A stretch of 46,253 nt of DNA from a virus. Where the stretch lies: positions 1-46,253 of the IMG/VR virus record IMGVR_UViG_3300009163_000061, one strand, 5' to 3'. Numbering within the stretch: the stretch's first letter is position 1; each line of letters starts with the position of its first letter. Position numbers and translations under genes: made by a program. The notes under the pieces are model-generated. The model made no database searches. It was not told the origin of the DNA and saw only the letters and a program-made list of their open reading frames with translations. Positions 2,621 to 44,254 of this stretch are shown in pieces.

Positions 2621-4061
2621 CCTCACCTACAACCCGCCAGTTTCAGTAACCCCATTCCTTACAAGCGAAGACTTCATTTCACTGATCATCGGACCTGTCG
2701 GCTCGACGAAGACGACAGCAAGTCTTATGAAGATAGCTTATCATGCCAGCAAGATGGCTAAGTCGCGTGATGGTGTTAGGCGAAGTCGTGCTATAGTAAT
2801 TCGTAACACCCGTGAGCAGCTTCGAGATACGACTATTCCAGACTTCATGAAGTGGTACCCAGATGGGATCGCTGGCAGTTATTTGAAGACGGAGTACAAG
2901 TATACACTCAAGTTTGACGACGTGGAGTGCGAGGTACTGTTCAGGGGATTGGATGATGCTAACGACGTTCGTCGTCTACTCTCTTTACAGGCTAGTTTCG
3001 GGGTTCTTGACGAGTTCCGGGAAATCAACCCCCAAATCTTCGAAGCCCTGCAAGGACGACTAGGTCGTTATCCAGACGGTATGCTGGTACCGCATCGCCC
3101 TGAGTGGGGTGTGGACAAGAAAGGCAACCCGATACAAGGTTGTGTTACAGACGATGGCAAGTCAAACGCACACTTGTGGGGCGCTACCAACCCACCAGAC
3201 ATGGATACGTTCTGGGAGAAGTTCATAAGTGAGCCTCCTGCTAACGCCAGTATTACGATACAACCTAGCGGACTGTCCCCGGATGCTGACTGGGTTAAGT
3301 ATCTGCCGTCTGATTACTACGATAACCTCGCTGAAGGTAAGGCTGAGGACTGGATAGACGTGTATATACACGCCAAATTCGGCAAATCGCTGTCCGGAAG
3401 GCCCGTTTTTAGCTCCTTTAAGAGCGATTTTCATGTGTCAAAAGAGCCACTTAGACCCATCAGATCAGGTGAAAAACCGCTGATTTTGGGGGTAGATTTC
3501 GGTCTTTCGCCCGCTATGACAATCTCACAGATGGATATGCATGGTCGGTTGCTGACGTTTGCGTGTGCTGTGTCTGAGGGCATGGGGATTACGCGGTTTA
3601 CGCAGGAGAAGATCAAGCCGATACTGGCTGAGCGGTTTCCGGGTCTGCCTGTTATAATCATAGGCGACCCAGCAGGTTCACAGAGGGCGCAGACGGACGA
3701 GAAGTCTTGCTTTGATATACTGAAGGCCGAAGGCTTCCGCGTCCTTCCAGCGCGAACTAACAGCATCGTGGCACGTATTGCTGCGGTGGAGAAGTTCCTA
3801 TCACGTCAGGTTGAAGGCGGAGCAGGTCACTTGATCGATCCAAGCTGCCTAGAGCTGATACGCGCCATGCGCGGGGGCTATCGATACAAGATGCGTAAGA
3901 CAGGTGAGACGGACGCAACGCCGGAGAAGAACTCACACAGCCACGTAGCAGATGCACATCAGTACGCTTGCTTACACGCAGATGGTGGTGAGATGTTCGG
4001 TACTAATATTCAGGTGCAAAAACGAGAAGTTATCCGTGTCAAGTCCGGTGGGTGGACTTAA
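2613..4061 (+). CDS. terL: Terminase large subunit, 482 aa
   Basis: This is the ATP-driven DNA-packaging motor and headful or end-cutting nuclease, acting at the portal. A Walker A variant GPVGSTKTT is at residues 27-35 and Walker B with the catalytic acid VLDEF is at 131-135. The RNase H-fold nuclease domain has D295 (GVDFGLSP), D352 (IIIGDPAG) and D447 (HVADAHQY). Length is normal for the family. A GAGGAAG ribosome-binding site precedes the ATG. The Walker A has Ser-Thr-Lys-Thr in place of the usual Ser/Gly-Gly-Lys-Thr but keeps the essential Lys-Thr. Confidence 0.95.
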   Translation: MSNLTYNPPVSVTPFLTSEDFISLIIGPVGSTKTTASLMKIAYHASKMAKSRDGVRRSRAIVIRNTREQLRDTTIPDFMKWYPDGIAGSYLKTEYKYTLKFDDVECEVLFRGLDDANDVRRLLSLQASFGVLDEFREINPQIFEALQGRLGRYPDGMLVPHRPEWGVDKKGNPIQGCVTDDGKSNAHLWGATNPPDMDTFWEKFISEPPANASITIQPSGLSPDADWVKYLPSDYYDNLAEGKAEDWIDVYIHAKFGKSLSGRPVFSSFKSDFHVSKEPLRPIRSGEKPLILGVDFGLSPAMTISQMDMHGRLLTFACAVSEGMGITRFTQEKIKPILAERFPGLPVIIIGDPAGSQRAQTDEKSCFDILKAEGFRVLPARTNSIVARIAAVEKFLSRQVEGGAGHLIDPSCLELIRAMRGGYRYKMRKTGETDATPEKNSHSHVADAHQYACLHADGGEMFGTNIQVQKREVIRVKSGGWT

Positions 4062-39217: not shown

Positions 39218-39404
39218 AGAAGTTTGTACCTGTCTTAGTTTGCGCCGCACGCGGTGCAGCATCTCCAGACCTGTTACCCTTATCGCCACCGTCTTCGAGG
39301 TATGGGTTGTCTGTTGAGTATGCCCAACTCCGACGATGTTCTCTGTACGCTGCTTGCTTGGTCTCAGCGTCAGCTTTAAAAATCTCTAGCTCTTGTTCGG
39401 TCAT
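39216..39404 (-). CDS. Small hypothetical protein, 62 aa
   Basis: Its ATG overlaps the stop of the nuclease gene (ATGA, 39401-39404), which supports translation. The N-terminal half is a charged helix (TEQELEIFKADAETKQAAYREHRR), and the rest is Gly/Asn/Thr-rich and likely disordered. No family is recognised. Its stop falls on the U-tract of the rightward terminator. Confidence 0.6.
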   Translation of the reverse strand: MTEQELEIFKADAETKQAAYREHRRSWAYSTDNPYLEDGGDKGNRSGDAAPRAAQTKTGTNF

Positions 39405-40072
39405 ACGCCACAGTGATCACAAAGTGCCTTGCCTACCGGGCACCATGCCCGACACAGCCCTGATGGTCTTGCAGGAAACTTCTCTTCCTCGATGGCATGT
39501 TCCAAACGTGCGACCCTTGGCGCAAACTCTTGCCAGATTGCTGGAATGTCATCGCGTGTAAACTTCTCGGCAGTAACTGTACCCGTCTTAAGCCACACGA
39601 AGGCGTTGATAACCTCGTTGACGTAAGGCTTGAGATGCATGGTCATTGCCGCTGTCAGCTTGAGCTGGCTCGACTCAGGCGTAGGCTTGCCTGTCTTCCA
39701 GTCCCCGATAAACACCTTGTCTTTAGTACCGATGGTAAAGTCGGTAATGCCGCGCACCCAGACATCCTTAGCGAACCACGTAGTTCCCTTGAACGAGGCC
39801 GTGAGTGCCATCTTAGTTTCGGCTTCTAGCTTCTTGCCCTTAGCCTTGTTGGCCACAGTCGTAGCAATAGCCTCAAACTGTTGCATGTTTTCAGGCAATG
39901 GCTTGTTCTTGACCAGACGATGTTCCAAGGCCGTGTGTACCTCGTTACCCCACTTCATAGCTTCAGACTGAGGCTCGTAAGCCTGCTTGCTGATCTTGGT
40001 AAGATAGTACCGCTTGGGGCACGTCTCGAACGCAGTGAGGGATGAGTAAGACCATGTAACAGGTTTAGTCAT
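39401..40072 (-). CDS. PD-(D/E)XK exonuclease, RecB/Cas4-like, 223 aa
   Basis: Domain PDDEXK_1. The catalytic landmarks are EVHTALEHRL (His), GITDFTIG (Asp) and GDWKTGK (Asp and Lys). An iron-sulphur-type Cys set is suggested by FETCPKRYYL near the N-terminus and CRAWCPVGKALCDHCG at the C-terminus. Members of this group are 5'-3' or single-strand exonucleases in phage recombination or end processing. The ATG at 40072 is used because AAAGG precedes it; it overlaps the DUF3310 gene by 8 bases. Confidence 0.85.
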   Translation of the reverse strand: MTKPVTWSYSSLTAFETCPKRYYLTKISKQAYEPQSEAMKWGNEVHTALEHRLVKNKPLPENMQQFEAIATTVANKAKGKKLEAETKMALTASFKGTTWFAKDVWVRGITDFTIGTKDKVFIGDWKTGKPTPESSQLKLTAAMTMHLKPYVNEVINAFVWLKTGTVTAEKFTRDDIPAIWQEFAPRVARLEHAIEEEKFPARPSGLCRAWCPVGKALCDHCGV

Positions 40073-40277
40073 TTGATGCCTTTCGTTTGGCAAGTTCGCG
40101 CTGGATGTACCAGACAGCTTTTTCAAGGTCTTCGATGGCGTCATGCTTTAGATCGGCTCGCCATATGTACTTGATGGCATTGCCTAAACAAAACCCCATG
40201 TGCTCTGTTATCTGGATACATTCTACGCCGGAAGGATGCGCTGTGTAATGTGGTGGGTGATTTATTACGTCAGCCAT
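40065..40277 (-). CDS. DUF3310 protein, 70 aa
   Basis: The full family pattern is visible: INHPPHYTAHPSGVECIQITEHMGFCLGNAIKYIWRADLKHDAIEDLEKAVWYIQREL. DUF3310 is common in phage early operons; it has been described as a SaV-like nucleotide kinase-related fold but its biochemical role is not settled. It is the first gene after an internal promoter (40298-40325), and its stop overlaps the nuclease start. Confidence 0.92.
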   Translation of the reverse strand: MADVINHPPHYTAHPSGVECIQITEHMGFCLGNAIKYIWRADLKHDAIEDLEKAVWYIQRELAKRKASND

Positions 40278-40624: not shown

Positions 40625-41054
40625 CAAAACTAAACCTATCCACTCCACAGCCGCAGTAGATATTATACTTGCTAGCAATCTCAACGGCTTGTTCTGCTGT
40701 CGCTCCCATAGCCATAGCACCTAGTGCTAGATCACCGCCTTGTCCCTCTGCCCAGAACTCATCCTTGACTATGATGGGGTAGGGCGAGTCTTCAAACTTC
40801 ACAACGTGCCCAGACTTATAAACCACGTACACTATGGGAATACCGCTGTCTGTCTCCAAATCTTGCGGAAACGAGATGGGGTTCATACCGCTTAGTAACC
40901 AGTTGTACAGCCTCACTGTTGATGCGTGAGAACCGATTAGCCCAAACAGCCTGTCATCGACTTTAAAGATTTTAACGGATGTGGTTATGCTTCCGCCGCA
41001 GGTTGCTTGCCTGTCTGCTGCTAGTGTCTTGCCGTCCCATGCTATGACGCTCAT
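40617..41054 (-). CDS. Proteasome/HslV-like Ntn hydrolase, 145 aa
   Basis: The N-terminus MSVIAWDGKTLAADRQATCGG followed by VKIFKVDDRLFGLIGSHAS matches the 20S proteasome/HslV beta-subunit fold found in phages. After Met removal the first residue would be Ser, which could serve as N-terminal nucleophile in place of the usual Thr; D14 and K28 are candidate partners. An ATP-free peptidase or non-catalytic role is unknown. No unfoldase is encoded in the window. It is coupled to its neighbours on both sides (4- and 8-base overlaps). Confidence 0.8.
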   Translation of the reverse strand: MSVIAWDGKTLAADRQATCGGSITTSVKIFKVDDRLFGLIGSHASTVRLYNWLLSGMNPISFPQDLETDSGIPIVYVVYKSGHVVKFEDSPYPIIVKDEFWAEGQGGDLALGAMAMGATAEQAVEIASKYNIYCGCGVDRFSFDE

Positions 41055-41245
41055 TCCAAATGATCCCCTGCTTCGATGTACATGGCAATTTCTCGTGCCG
41101 CACTATGGTCAAGATAAAAGTCTGACATTTCCTTACGATCCCGCAGCCAAGCCACGATCAAATGGCGCTCCAGTGCCCTGCCCTGCGTGACGCCTGTTTT
41201 ATGCGCCACCAGCGGCACACTGTCTGCAGATGTGTAATTGCTCAT
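41051..41245 (-). CDS. Small protein of the VAWLR...EAGEHLK family, 64 aa
   Basis: The C-terminal half, RHLIVAWLRDRKEMSDFYLDHSAAREIAMYIEAGDHLE, aligns with the downstream-located paralogs (RAKIVAWLRK...AADAIEAGEHLK). The N-terminus is unrelated. The end of the gene contains the ribosome-binding site and start of the proteasome-like gene (ATGA overlap). Function unknown. Confidence 0.75.
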   Translation of the reverse strand: MSNYTSADSVPLVAHKTGVTQGRALERHLIVAWLRDRKEMSDFYLDHSAAREIAMYIEAGDHLE

Positions 41246-41445
41246 TTCAAATGCTCCCCTGCTTCGATTGCATCAGCGGCAGTAAATTGGCAACGATGAT
41301 CCATAGGCTTGCGTAACCAAGCCACGATCTTGGCCCGCTCGTCGCGAGCGTCAAAGTTAGGCCCTTCATTACATTTAAAGCAATTTGGGACGTATGGCGC
41401 ATATACGCACTGGCATTTGGGACATATCCAGCCTCTGTTGGTCAT
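41242..41445 (-). CDS. Zinc-ribbon protein of the VAWLR...EAGEHLK family, 67 aa
   Basis: The N-terminal zinc ribbon has CPKCQCVYAPYVPNCFKC; the C-terminal family module reads RAKIVAWLRKPMDHRCQFTAADAIEAGEHLK. The ATG at 41445 is preferred because AGGAGGG lies 8 bases upstream as part of the repeated junction; the in-frame ATG at 41496 would add 17 residues and abuts the previous stop. The protein shows that the family module is attached to different N-terminal domains. Confidence 0.75.
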   Translation of the reverse strand: MTNRGWICPKCQCVYAPYVPNCFKCNEGPNFDARDERAKIVAWLRKPMDHRCQFTAADAIEAGEHLK

Positions 41446-41492
41446 TTCAGATGCCCTCCTGCTTTGATTAAATCTCCTGCAGTAATCGTCGA
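41442..41492 (-). pseudogene. Decayed C-terminus of an EAGEHLK-family gene
   Basis: In the frame one step from the zinc-ribbon gene, this stretch encodes STITAGDLIKAGGHLK-stop. TAGDLIKAGGHLK matches TAADAIEAGEHLK at 9 of 13 positions. It is preceded in frame by TGA and has no start codon, so it is a remnant left when the body of a paralog was lost. Its junction function (ribosome-binding site and start for the next gene) is retained. Confidence 0.6.
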
Positions 41493-41496
41493 TCAT

Positions 41497-41670
41497 TTAC
41501 TCTCTCCACATTTGAACTAATAAAAAACAAAGCTTGTACAAACAAACTAGAGCGGCGAATATCAAAACCCCTATGACAAATTTTGTCATATAAATCATCG
41601 CCCACAAAAACCCAAAGAAAAACAAAACAAACCCCGCCATAAGGCTAATCGCGTAAATATGGTTTTTCAT
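41497..41670 (-). CDS. Small membrane protein, 57 aa
   Basis: Two hydrophobic helices (about residues 8-29, ISLMAGFVLFFFGFLWAMIYM, and 31-53, FVIGVLIFAALVCLYKLCFLL). The ATG overlaps the pentapeptide gene stop (ATGA) and uses the junction ribosome-binding site GGAG. The AT-rich, T-run-rich codons differ from neighbours. It may modify the host membrane or block other phages; no function is known. Confidence 0.7.
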   Translation of the reverse strand: MKNHIYAISLMAGFVLFFFGFLWAMIYMTKFVIGVLIFAALVCLYKLCFLLVQMWRE

Positions 41671-42104
41671 TTCAGATGCTCCTTTCTGTTACTCTCGATG
41701 ACTGCCTGTTGATCTTCGCGCATGATTGCTTCCAGCGCCGTGTGATTAAATACGCATCCGTTGGTAAGCGACCTAGTGAAATTGGTCCCTTTCAGATTGC
41801 AATCCGAAAAGTCTGAACCCCAACAATCCGTCGGCATGTACGCACCGCTAAAATCTAAACCTTTTAGATCGCGATTATAGAACACTATGCCGCCCAGATT
41901 CTGACCTGCCAGCGATTTCCGGGCTTTAATTGCGGCCTCGGTCCTGTCCTTCAAACCTATGCGTTCTGCCCACTCAACATGTTGGTCCAAACAGCGCGGA
42001 CAAAGCCGAGCATAAGGGTTAAAATAACCAATTTTCCAACACCGCTCACACTTAACTCCCTTTGCTCGGCCTGCTGAAATAAATGTATGTTTTGCCTTAA
42101 TCAT
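41667..42104 (-). CDS. Zinc-ribbon plus pentapeptide-repeat protein, 145 aa
   Basis: An N-terminal zinc ribbon (C19-x2-C22 ... C35-x2-C38) and a helix are followed by pentapeptide repeats at about 70-125 (LGGIVFYNRDLKGLDFSGAYMP, SDFSDCNLKGTNF), which form a right-handed beta-helix. Pentapeptide proteins can mimic DNA or act as protein scaffolds. The C-terminus ESNRKEHLK retains the family EHLK end. The start is the ATG in the junction repeat (42102-42104). Confidence 0.8.
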   Translation of the reverse strand: MIKAKHTFISAGRAKGVKCERCWKIGYFNPYARLCPRCLDQHVEWAERIGLKDRTEAAIKARKSLAGQNLGGIVFYNRDLKGLDFSGAYMPTDCWGSDFSDCNLKGTNFTRSLTNGCVFNHTALEAIMREDQQAVIESNRKEHLK

Positions 42105-42274
42105 TTCAGATGCTCCCCTGCTTCGATTTCGTCGGCTGCCCATCTTAATTCTGCGGAAATAGCCACAACATCCTCGCCGTGTGAATTTTTCTCGATCCAC
42201 CTCGCCCGCCCGAGCAGCCACTCCGCAACTAAATATCGCTCAACACCAATGGCGTCCGCTATTTCGTTTATCAT
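42101..42274 (-). CDS. Small protein of the EAGEHLK family, 57 aa
   Basis: It begins MINEIADAIGVERYLVAEWLLGRARWIEKN and ends AELRWAADEIEAGEHLK, so the family module makes up the whole protein. Start and stop both lie in junction repeats (ATGs at 42274 and 42104). Function unknown; the helical pattern suggests a small binding protein. Confidence 0.75.
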   Translation of the reverse strand: MINEIADAIGVERYLVAEWLLGRARWIEKNSHGEDVVAISAELRWAADEIEAGEHLK

Positions 42275-42287
42275 TTCAGATGCTCCC

Positions 42288-42401
42288 CTACAGTACCCAT
42301 CGGACAAGCCAGTGGATGGTTTCAACGAATGTAAAAACAGACACGATAGTGACAACCAGTGTGGCCATCAATACGCTAACAATCTCGTCGTACTTGTGCA
42401 T
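42288..42401 (-). CDS. Membrane peptide, 37 aa
   Basis: It reads MHKYDEIVSVLMATLVVTIV and then SVFTFVETIHWLVRWVL: one membrane helix with a charged N-terminus and amphipathic end. It has the strongest ribosome-binding site of the cluster (GGAGGTAAAGTA before the ATG), and its ATG overlaps the polymerase stop (TAATG). A junction repeat follows its stop. Confidence 0.65.
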   Translation of the reverse strand: MHKYDEIVSVLMATLVVTIVSVFTFVETIHWLVRWVL

Positions 42402-44254
42402 TACTTTACCTCCTTCAGATCACCCCAGTTCTTGCCCCACTTTGCATCGACGGGGAACGACACAGGCAAGTCTACGCCCCAAGCCTTTTTGTATGGCAGG
42501 TTTGACAGTAGATGTTTAATCTTGGGCAGGGCTTCCACTGCGTGTTCGTCTGGTATGATCACAAAGATACCGTCGTGCAGCTCGAAGTAAAACTTGCCCT
42601 TAACTTTTTGCAGGTAGTCCTTGAGTACGGCCAAGGCTAGGTACTTCTGATCTGCACCTGTGCCCTGTATGGGGAAGTTAATCGCAGTAGACTCAGCAGA
42701 CCATGAGAAAGTTTTGCTCCATGTATTACCTTCTCCTAAGTTTATCCTTCTACCAGCAACTGTATCTACATGCCCATCAAGTTTGGCATCTTTGATTTGA
42801 TTAGACCAATACGTTCCTACCCTTGGATATGTCGTGCGGTAGGTTGCGTGAATAACCTTAGCCTCAATCTCTGTGATGCTCAGTTTGTGCTGAACCCGCG
42901 CAACCCGCTTCAGAGTTTTTGCTGATGTGCGATAGCCAAGGCCAAGGTTTGCTACCTTGCCCAACTGACGGATAGCCTTGATCTTTGGGTCTCCAGTCGC
43001 GCCACCTGCAAGCATCTGCTCGTATGTTTTCTTGCCGATCTTGCCGCCCATGTATGCGTGAGCGTCTTCGCCGGGTTGGCACTTGTCGATCATGGTGGGG
43101 TCACCAGACAGCACAGCCATCCACCGAAACTCCTGACCCGCGAAGTCAAACTCCATCAGAGTATAACCATCTGGTGCTTCAATCAGACGACGAAATGCTG
43201 CGTCACGTTTCCACTGGTGCAGGGCTACGCCTGTTTGCTTCTTGTCCTTGCCGCGCAAGATCGACGAGCCGTACGTCATACGTCCTGTGTATGTACCGTT
43301 CACCTTGGCGCTAGGTCTGACCCTGCCGTCACCGTTATAGTCCAAGGCTGCTATAGTGTTATCTGCAAACTTGGTACGGTTGCCGTTGGCTTCACGGTAT
43401 GCGTTCAGCAACCCTGCCCGCTCATCAACCTCGGCCAACTGAGATAGTGCATCCCTGTCGGTAGAGTCCGCGCCCTTGTCGGTTAGCTTGACTGACTTTA
43501 GGCCCCAGTCCTCAAACAATAACTTCCGTAGTTTAGTTGGTGACGCAAGAATATCTACGTCAACCGCGCCTCGGTTCTTAATCGCCAGAGTGACCAGAGC
43601 TATGTTGGCTTCATCGGTTAGCTTCTTCTGCAAGTCCTTGGCTGCGTCATAGTTCATGACGATACCCTCAACGTGCGACTCCGCGACCATAGGCAGACAC
43701 GCTGCCTCGATCAGAGCTGCTCGACGCTGCTTCGGATTTAACAAATCCCAAAACTTGTTAGTTAGCCTGAGCGTAAACTCGGCGTCATTAATATTATATA
43801 CCAGCAGGTCGGCCAGCTTGTCGGGATCGTCCGTATTAAAATCTATGTCCTGCTCATATCCTGCTTCATCAGGATAAAACTCACGGACTGCGGCCTTCAG
43901 GCCATAGCTAGACGGAGCCAAGCCTGTCCACTCAGGGCTAGCTGTGAGATGCTTCCACAACAGCATGGCGTCCAGCCACTTACAGGCAAACACTTCCTCA
44001 CGTAGACCCAGAGCGATCAGCCAAGCGGCATCAAACGCCGCGTTCCATGCGGTGATTACGCGATTATTCACCGCACAATCGACCAGCCACTGACGCAGGG
44101 TTTCCACGTCAGGCTTCATGATGCCTTCAGCGCCGTCCTTGTCGGCCATAGCGCACATTGTCAACCACGCCTCACCTGTGCGAGCGCGGAAGGGCTGTAG
44201 CCCGTAGCCATCCTCTGTGCCACGGGTTTCAACGTCGAACGATACAATGTTCAT
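42401..44254 (-). CDS. polA: DNA polymerase I family A with 3'-5' exonuclease, 617 aa
   Basis: The replicative polymerase. Exonuclease motifs are D7-V-E9, N71...D75 and Y153...D157. Polymerase motif A is FD370FAGQEFR, motif B is R429QLGK433VANL437GLGY441, and motif C is LH560D561G562. Leu437 is equivalent to E. coli residue 762, and motif C has Gly where nearly all relatives have Glu. The two catalytic Asp are kept. The length fits phage-type polymerases with a short N-terminal region. It is coupled to both neighbours (4-base overlap upstream, 1-base overlap downstream). Confidence 0.95.
   Translation of the reverse strand: MNIVSFDVETRGTEDGYGLQPFRARTGEAWLTMCAMADKDGAEGIMKPDVETLRQWLVDCAVNNRVITAWNAAFDAAWLIALGLREEVFACKWLDAMLLWKHLTASPEWTGLAPSSYGLKAAVREFYPDEAGYEQDIDFNTDDPDKLADLLVYNINDAEFTLRLTNKFWDLLNPKQRRAALIEAACLPMVAESHVEGIVMNYDAAKDLQKKLTDEANIALVTLAIKNRGAVDVDILASPTKLRKLLFEDWGLKSVKLTDKGADSTDRDALSQLAEVDERAGLLNAYREANGNRTKFADNTIAALDYNGDGRVRPSAKVNGTYTGRMTYGSSILRGKDKKQTGVALHQWKRDAAFRRLIEAPDGYTLMEFDFAGQEFRWMAVLSGDPTMIDKCQPGEDAHAYMGGKIGKKTYEQMLAGGATGDPKIKAIRQLGKVANLGLGYRTSAKTLKRVARVQHKLSITEIEAKVIHATYRTTYPRVGTYWSNQIKDAKLDGHVDTVAGRRINLGEGNTWSKTFSWSAESTAINFPIQGTGADQKYLALAVLKDYLQKVKGKFYFELHDGIFVIIPDEHAVEALPKIKHLLSNLPYKKAWGVDLPVSFPVDAKWGKNWGDLKEVK

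Follow-up and report, generated by a model that had tools for sequence, protein, structure and literature searches.

Small genes and seams in the window

The window, i.e. the whole stretch of DNA analyzed here, is an IMG/VR virus record of 46,253 bases. On its minus strand, five small genes sit between the DNA polymerase gene with an adjoining 37-aa membrane peptide gene and an HslV/proteasome-like gene. The junctions of this array carry a short repeat, in the following called the seam. The features of the region are listed below.

42401..44254, minus strand: DNA polymerase gene (phrog_17); left flank anchor for finding relatives
42288..42401, minus strand: 37-aa membrane peptide gene; conserved left flank of the variable region
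42271..42289, minus strand: seam copy 1, exact consensus; upstream TAG fused to the seam, no tail encoded; 5' breakpoint relative to contig L005
42101..42274, minus strand: small helical gene, 57 aa, with an AEWL-type motif and an IEAGEHLK tail
42101..42119, minus strand: seam copy 2, exact; encodes IEAGEHLK-stop
41667..42104, minus strand: zinc-ribbon-like and pentapeptide-repeat gene, 145 aa (PF00805, E=1.5e-6); ends in KEHLK
41667..41685, minus strand: seam copy 3, at the end of the pentapeptide gene; encodes only KEHLK-stop (NRKEHLK)
41497..41670, minus strand: 57-aa membrane peptide gene; TAA stop, without seam tail
41442..41460, minus strand: seam copy 4; with orphan tail, 41442..41492 (17 codons, STITAGDLIKAGGHLK-stop)
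41242..41445, minus strand: zinc-ribbon gene, 67 aa, with ERAKIVAWLR hinge, KPMDHRCQFTAADA linker and IEAGEHLK tail
41242..41260, minus strand: seam copy 5; encodes IEAGEHLK-stop
41051..41245, minus strand: 64-aa gene with head SNYTSADSVPLVAHKTG, hinge ERHLIVAWLR and tail IEAGDHLE
41051..41069, minus strand: seam copy 6; encodes IEAGDHLE-stop, weaker Shine-Dalgarno (SD) run GGGGAT; 3' breakpoint relative to L005
40617..41054, minus strand: HslV/proteasome-like peptidase gene (phrog_1040, E=2.9e-34); conserved right flank, directly after the array
39401..40144, minus strand: PD-(D/E)XK exonuclease gene (PF12705); candidate recombination enzyme of the phage

The kinds of genes named in the first-pass annotation of this DNA, i.e. 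a zinc ribbon, a zinc ribbon with pentapeptide repeats, membrane peptides and small helical proteins, were all recovered. The zinc-ribbon gene (41242..41445) has its head in common with contig L066 and its linker in common with L096 and L025. An alternative start at 41496 (MIDDYC...) is possible for this gene; the start at 41445 is favored because the L066 homologue begins right after its seam. For the pentapeptide gene (41667..42104), no relative was found in the viral contigs beyond one near-identical contig, and no annealing protein (SSAP) was recognized among the phage genes scanned. A role of the tail as a degradation tag tied to the adjacent HslV-like peptidase was considered and dropped, as HslV-like genes were found in 16 other contigs without a nearby seam.

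The sequence AGGGGAGCATCTGAAATGA occurs in six minus-strand copies with 0-3 mismatches. No further copy (up to 3 mismatches) was found anywhere in the 46,253 bases, and the expected number, based on 100 dinucleotide shuffles of the window, was 0; the six near-identical junctions reported earlier are thus real. The seam is about 19-27 bp long with the consensus ATCGAAGCAGGGGAGCAT[C/T]TGAAATGA, and comprises the last codons of the upstream gene (the helical tail ...IEAGEHLK), the Shine-Dalgarno run GGGGAG and an ATGA start/stop overlap. In all six copies an SD-like purine run, GGGGAT in copy 6, lies 8 nt ahead of the ATG, which overlaps the TGA, so the junction does supply both ribosome-binding site and start, as had been proposed. 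Stop, ribosome-binding site and start are complete in each copy, so that a gene joined to it is at once in the operon and translatable.

The further claim that every junction encodes IEAGEHLK-stop held only in part. The exact tail is found in just two upstream genes, ending at 42101 and 41242 and with 26 of 27 bases in common; the gene ending at 41051 has IEAGDHLE, the one ending at 41667 only KEHLK, and at 42271 and 41442 the upstream gene receives no tail. At 42271, the 37-aa gene ends in a TAG fused to the seam (CTGTAGGGGAGCATCTGAAATGA), and the seam DNA encodes no tail there. At 41442, the upstream membrane gene has already been ended by its TAA (41497-41499), and the 17-codon orphan frame is followed by the ATG. 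This orphan tail (41442-41492) is apparently the leftover end of a lost gene. As the seam DNA persists where the upstream gene gets no tail from it, the repeat is DNA first. Another remnant between seams is found in L066, where a gene ends in ...GEHLNMPPATN-stop just ahead of GGAGCATCTGAAATGA. On the reverse strand of L069 (around 200-223), a perfect GAAGCAGGGGAGCATCTGAAATGA has an upstream frame that differs (...TLTPKQGSI-stop) and hence no EHLK tail.

Distribution and codon conservation of the seam

In viral contigs, 54 stretches matched EAGEHLK-TGA when searched for codon-blind, compared with one stretch when TAA or TAG took the place of TGA; 84,980 bacterial and archaeal genomes gave a single chance-like match. 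The 103 junction contigs, a few of which are chance matches, fell into 40 groups by 500-bp DNA similarity. Among the 92 matches of the first pattern scan, several were evidently chance hits or of another kind (e.g. L052, L060, L067, L083, L097 and L100). Three tail proteins used as queries against cultured phages and plasmids gave no relative, and the sole region matched in a distant DNA search in phages was a small DUF3310/'nucleotide kinase' gene. In L026 (around 2881-3294, reverse strand), a protein with repeated DWFLDGKxHRVDGPA, i.e. a gene outside the family, ends in IEAGEHLK.

Tail codons were close to uniform over 48 distinct instances (GAA 44, GCA 41, GGG 44, GAG 47, CAT 42 and AAA 47), as compared to contig backgrounds of 20% for GCA, 18% for GGG, 50% for CAT and 34% for AAA. 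To be free of bias from the tail itself, 28 distinct genes were picked codon-blind by ERAKIVAWLR alone. In these, 26 of the 28 end in the ATGA overlap, and the tail codons were GAA in 21/21, GCA in 19/20, CAT in 23/23 and AAA in 24/24. The hinge codons were more variable than the tail codons of the same proteins, with an effective codon number of 1.3-2.4 at seven of eight degenerate positions (1.07 for Val), against 1.0-1.4 in the tail, except for Leu (2.07). The SD and the start overlap account for GGGGAG and AAATGA, but not for GAA, GCA and CAT. Protein-level conservation with diverged codons, which the first-pass annotation had named as one of the findings that would speak against exchange, was not what these codon-blind searches gave; the junction codons are conserved.

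Gene replacement between close relatives

By searching with the DNA polymerase, we found contig L005, which is 93.6% identical to the window along 2903 bp that end at the seam at 42271, and 95.1% identical along 2215 bp that start with the ATGA at 41054. Between these matching flanks, the window has its five genes and L005 has two unlike genes (MRSDYEAAQDW...IEAGEHLK and MSELIPYII...KAGRHMYT). On one side, similarity is lost immediately after the ATGA; on the other, it starts exactly at the ATGA. Gene content between junctions therefore differs despite closely similar flanks, with both breaks at a junction ATGA, as expected if the genes are exchangeable. The right end of the L005 insert is a diverged tail (KAGRHMYT-stop) and not the seam consensus. 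In contig L006, which shares 99.98% identity with the window, the gene set is the same as in the window.

Gene turnover and breakpoints in other contigs

Eight different genes were found downstream of one conserved upstream gene (...NMFERSTRWLADRIEAGEHLK), which is present in 32 contigs. Conversely, several downstream genes have different upstream partners, e.g. the GTPEHFAAIGAKGG gene, which comes after several unlike upstream genes. The exchange role assigned to the junctions gained support from both sides, the same upstream gene preceding up to eight downstream genes and the same downstream gene following several upstream genes. In 76 contig pairs, most of them from one 36-contig cluster, DNA similarity (up to 3.2 kb, 80-97%) stops at the seam in both members, mostly at offset 0. 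Filled alleles with single small genes or up to 1.17 kb are carried by L010, L071, L023, L032, L031 and L063, and empty alleles, running straight to the next gene, by L019, L021, L045, L047 and L082. One insert, at 2126-3298 in L023 (also in L062 and L101), is a cytosine methyltransferase-like gene (MRYGSVCSGIEAATAAWHHMGW...) placed exactly at the seam as compared to L047.

Inserts in the largest lineage (36 contigs) have no seam at their right end, which is instead the preserved start of the following gene; exchange of a cassette between two seams is therefore seen only in the window lineage. The notion of a cassette between two junctions stands for the latter; in the large lineage, only the left end of the insert has a seam.

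A breakpoint was located within 15 bp of 42 out of 96 seams (44%), compared with 112 out of 564 other ATGA junctions (20%) in the same contigs; the odds ratio is 3.1, with a p value that serves only as a guide, as the alignment pairs are not independent. The other ATGA sites also attract breakpoints, with 105 seen versus 26.6 expected. Gene boundaries in general thus attract breakpoints, so part of the enrichment at seams reflects selection for intact genes.

Other junctions of the tail-SD-start kind are present in the same contigs, each before several different genes. These include RAALGETK-stop (L098, L131, L038, L090 and others), IREKGQ-stop (L099, L032, L037 and L046) and EQSK-stop (L015, L046 and L072). 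In L150 and L155, IEAGEHLK is fused to a subsequent EQSK/GQSK seam.

Shuffling at the hinge and the tail domain

A second exchange point, overlooked in the first-pass annotation, lies within genes at ERAKIVAWLR, where heads and linkers are shuffled. By a rough clustering (50% identity, single linkage), 60 distinct hinge genes sorted into 36 clusters by head and 40 by linker, with 56 combinations in all. Many heads go with several linkers, and many linkers in turn with more than one head, which argues for exchange at the hinge too. The head of the 41051 gene, for example, is also found in L022 and L033, each time with another linker, and the L033 linker is that of the first L005 gene. When the zinc-ribbon protein of the window was used as query, most of its 40 relatives matched from hinge to tail only.

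The stretch from ERAKIVAWLR to IEAGEHLK is probably a real small domain. AlphaFold predicts two helices (28-44 and 52-61), with a mean pLDDT of 74 overall and 83-89 for residues 31-60, and selection on the protein probably adds to the conservation. E36, R37, I40, W43 and K67 are invariant in an alignment of 52 sequences. None of the 52 members matched Pfam at 0.01, one gave a weak PHROG match (E=0.008) with no family that fits, and nothing significant was found among PDB sequences. It is conceivable that the tails have a common partner.

Comparison with known systems

The idea closest to the seam is that of the lambdoid boundary sequences (Susskind and Botstein 1978; Clark et al. 2001, HK620), which, as cited in PMC3029335, have been proposed to supply the homology for module exchange through short stretches conserved at the borders of genes. 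As in these, the seam is conserved at gene borders across mosaic genomes (the 76 pairs; window versus L005) and has different modules beside it (eight downstream genes after one upstream gene). The nin genes of lambda and HK620 likewise overlap by ATGA or GTGA, with the SD inside the upstream coding tail. In lambda nin, however, border sequences vary between genes and do not recur within the region, whereas the seam occurs six times in one genome, encodes a protein tail common to different genes and links genes that are interchangeable.

The SAS/ESAS elements of cluster K mycobacteriophages are, in the passages of PMC3203893 at hand, 13-bp GGGATAGGAGCCC repeats with a ribosome-binding site just upstream of many small unrelated genes. 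The seam is similarly a repeated start-site element before many unrelated small genes (27 and 21 distinct ones). Its consensus, tested as GGGGAGCATYTGAA, is unrelated in sequence to GGGATAGGAGCCC, and by this comparison the seam is not a member of SAS. Those passages describe SAS neither as a conserved C-terminal peptide of the upstream gene nor as an exchange breakpoint, and they give ESAS inverted repeats, of which none were seen at the seam.

Promoter early stem-loops (PeSL; Arbiol 2010, Comeau 2014) of T4-like phages, which we cite through the description in PMC4503421, are promoter-terminator cassettes between genes. Both PeSL, as described there, and the seam are short repeated motifs between small accessory genes that undergo modular shuffling. 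Unlike PeSL, the seam is a translation and coding motif without intergenic space, and its ATGA-overlap layout gives no sign of a PeSL.

Origin of the seam

That small genes turn over exactly at the repeated tail-SD-start seam is well supported, and short homology is likely what drives the exchange. Stretches of 20-30 bp are around the lower limit for RecA- and Red-type recombination. The explanation that we consider probable is a compact seam for recombination, where small genes enter, leave or take one another's place; some genes have in addition recombined internally at ERAKIVAWLR. Homologous or annealing recombination on short shared DNA, by host RecA or phage enzymes, would make the joins, and selection for translatable joins would filter the products. 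A gene joined at the seam would immediately be placed in the operon and be translatable, and we infer that translation is coupled across the seam. The second stretch would recombine inside genes, shuffling heads and linkers.

Selection certainly plays a part by favoring joins in which SD, spacing and start are intact, and the question is whether it could suffice. Illegitimate joins would then occur anywhere, with survival of only those restoring SD, spacing and start at an intact gene end, and the seam would be kept because tail peptide and translation signal are both needed, not as recombination homology. The enrichment of breakpoints at all ATGA junctions, the inserts without a seam at their right end and the part of the codon uniformity due to SD and start overlap (GGGGAG, AAATGA) fit this well. 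Nevertheless, we regard selection alone as unlikely, given that the GAA (21/21), GCA (19/20) and CAT (23/23) codons are fixed outside SD and start, that breakpoints are roughly twice as frequent at seams as at other ATGA junctions (44% versus 20%), that joins fall at offset 0 for many different inserts, and that no translation signal explains the shuffling within genes at ERAKIVAWLR.

Less probable still is a regulatory start-site element, by which a phage or host factor would co-regulate translation of small accessory genes with exchange as a by-product. The seam does lie always directly upstream of starts and in one orientation, as SAS does in the passages of PMC3203893, and its two commonest forms precede the 27 and 21 distinct downstream genes; however, conservation is confined to the coding tail, SD and start, and in the same contigs seam types of other sequence occupy comparable places. 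A single small gene family that duplicated in tandem and diverged, with the junction repeat as ordinary paralogy under protein selection, would account for a shared domain (the 52-sequence alignment, with two predicted helices at pLDDT 83-89) and for the three window genes that have both motifs in some form. This scenario does not account for the tail on non-family genes (the pentapeptide gene, the DWFLDGK-repeat protein of L026 and a small Cys-rich protein of L069), for seam DNA kept where it is not translated as a tail, or for recombining heads and linkers, and it is largely refuted by L005, whose genes are different and not diverged copies; we consider it very improbable.

A bolder extension of the recombination seam is an assembly grammar, in which a small set of tail-SD-start seams (GEHLK and apparently AALGETK, IREKGQ and EQSK) and an internal hinge are kept as DNA because recombination uses them. 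We offer this tentatively, as possible rather than probable.

Implications

How phage mosaics arise is a long-standing question: through recombination at brief conserved sequences where genes meet, or through joins made at random and then sorted by selection. It becomes testable with the seam, which is repeated and well defined, and which comes with naturally filled and empty sites, breakpoints precise to the base, and shuffling within genes. The seam phages form an uncultured group, for which no cultured relative was found, and are a clear natural example of phage genome patching. The seam is furthermore a handle for finding accessory genes with fast turnover, such as zinc ribbons, the pentapeptide protein, the methyltransferase and membrane peptides, which are a likely place for host-interaction functions. 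If the assembly grammar were true, these phages could build new accessory proteins, ready for immediate translation, from heads, linkers and neighboring genes.
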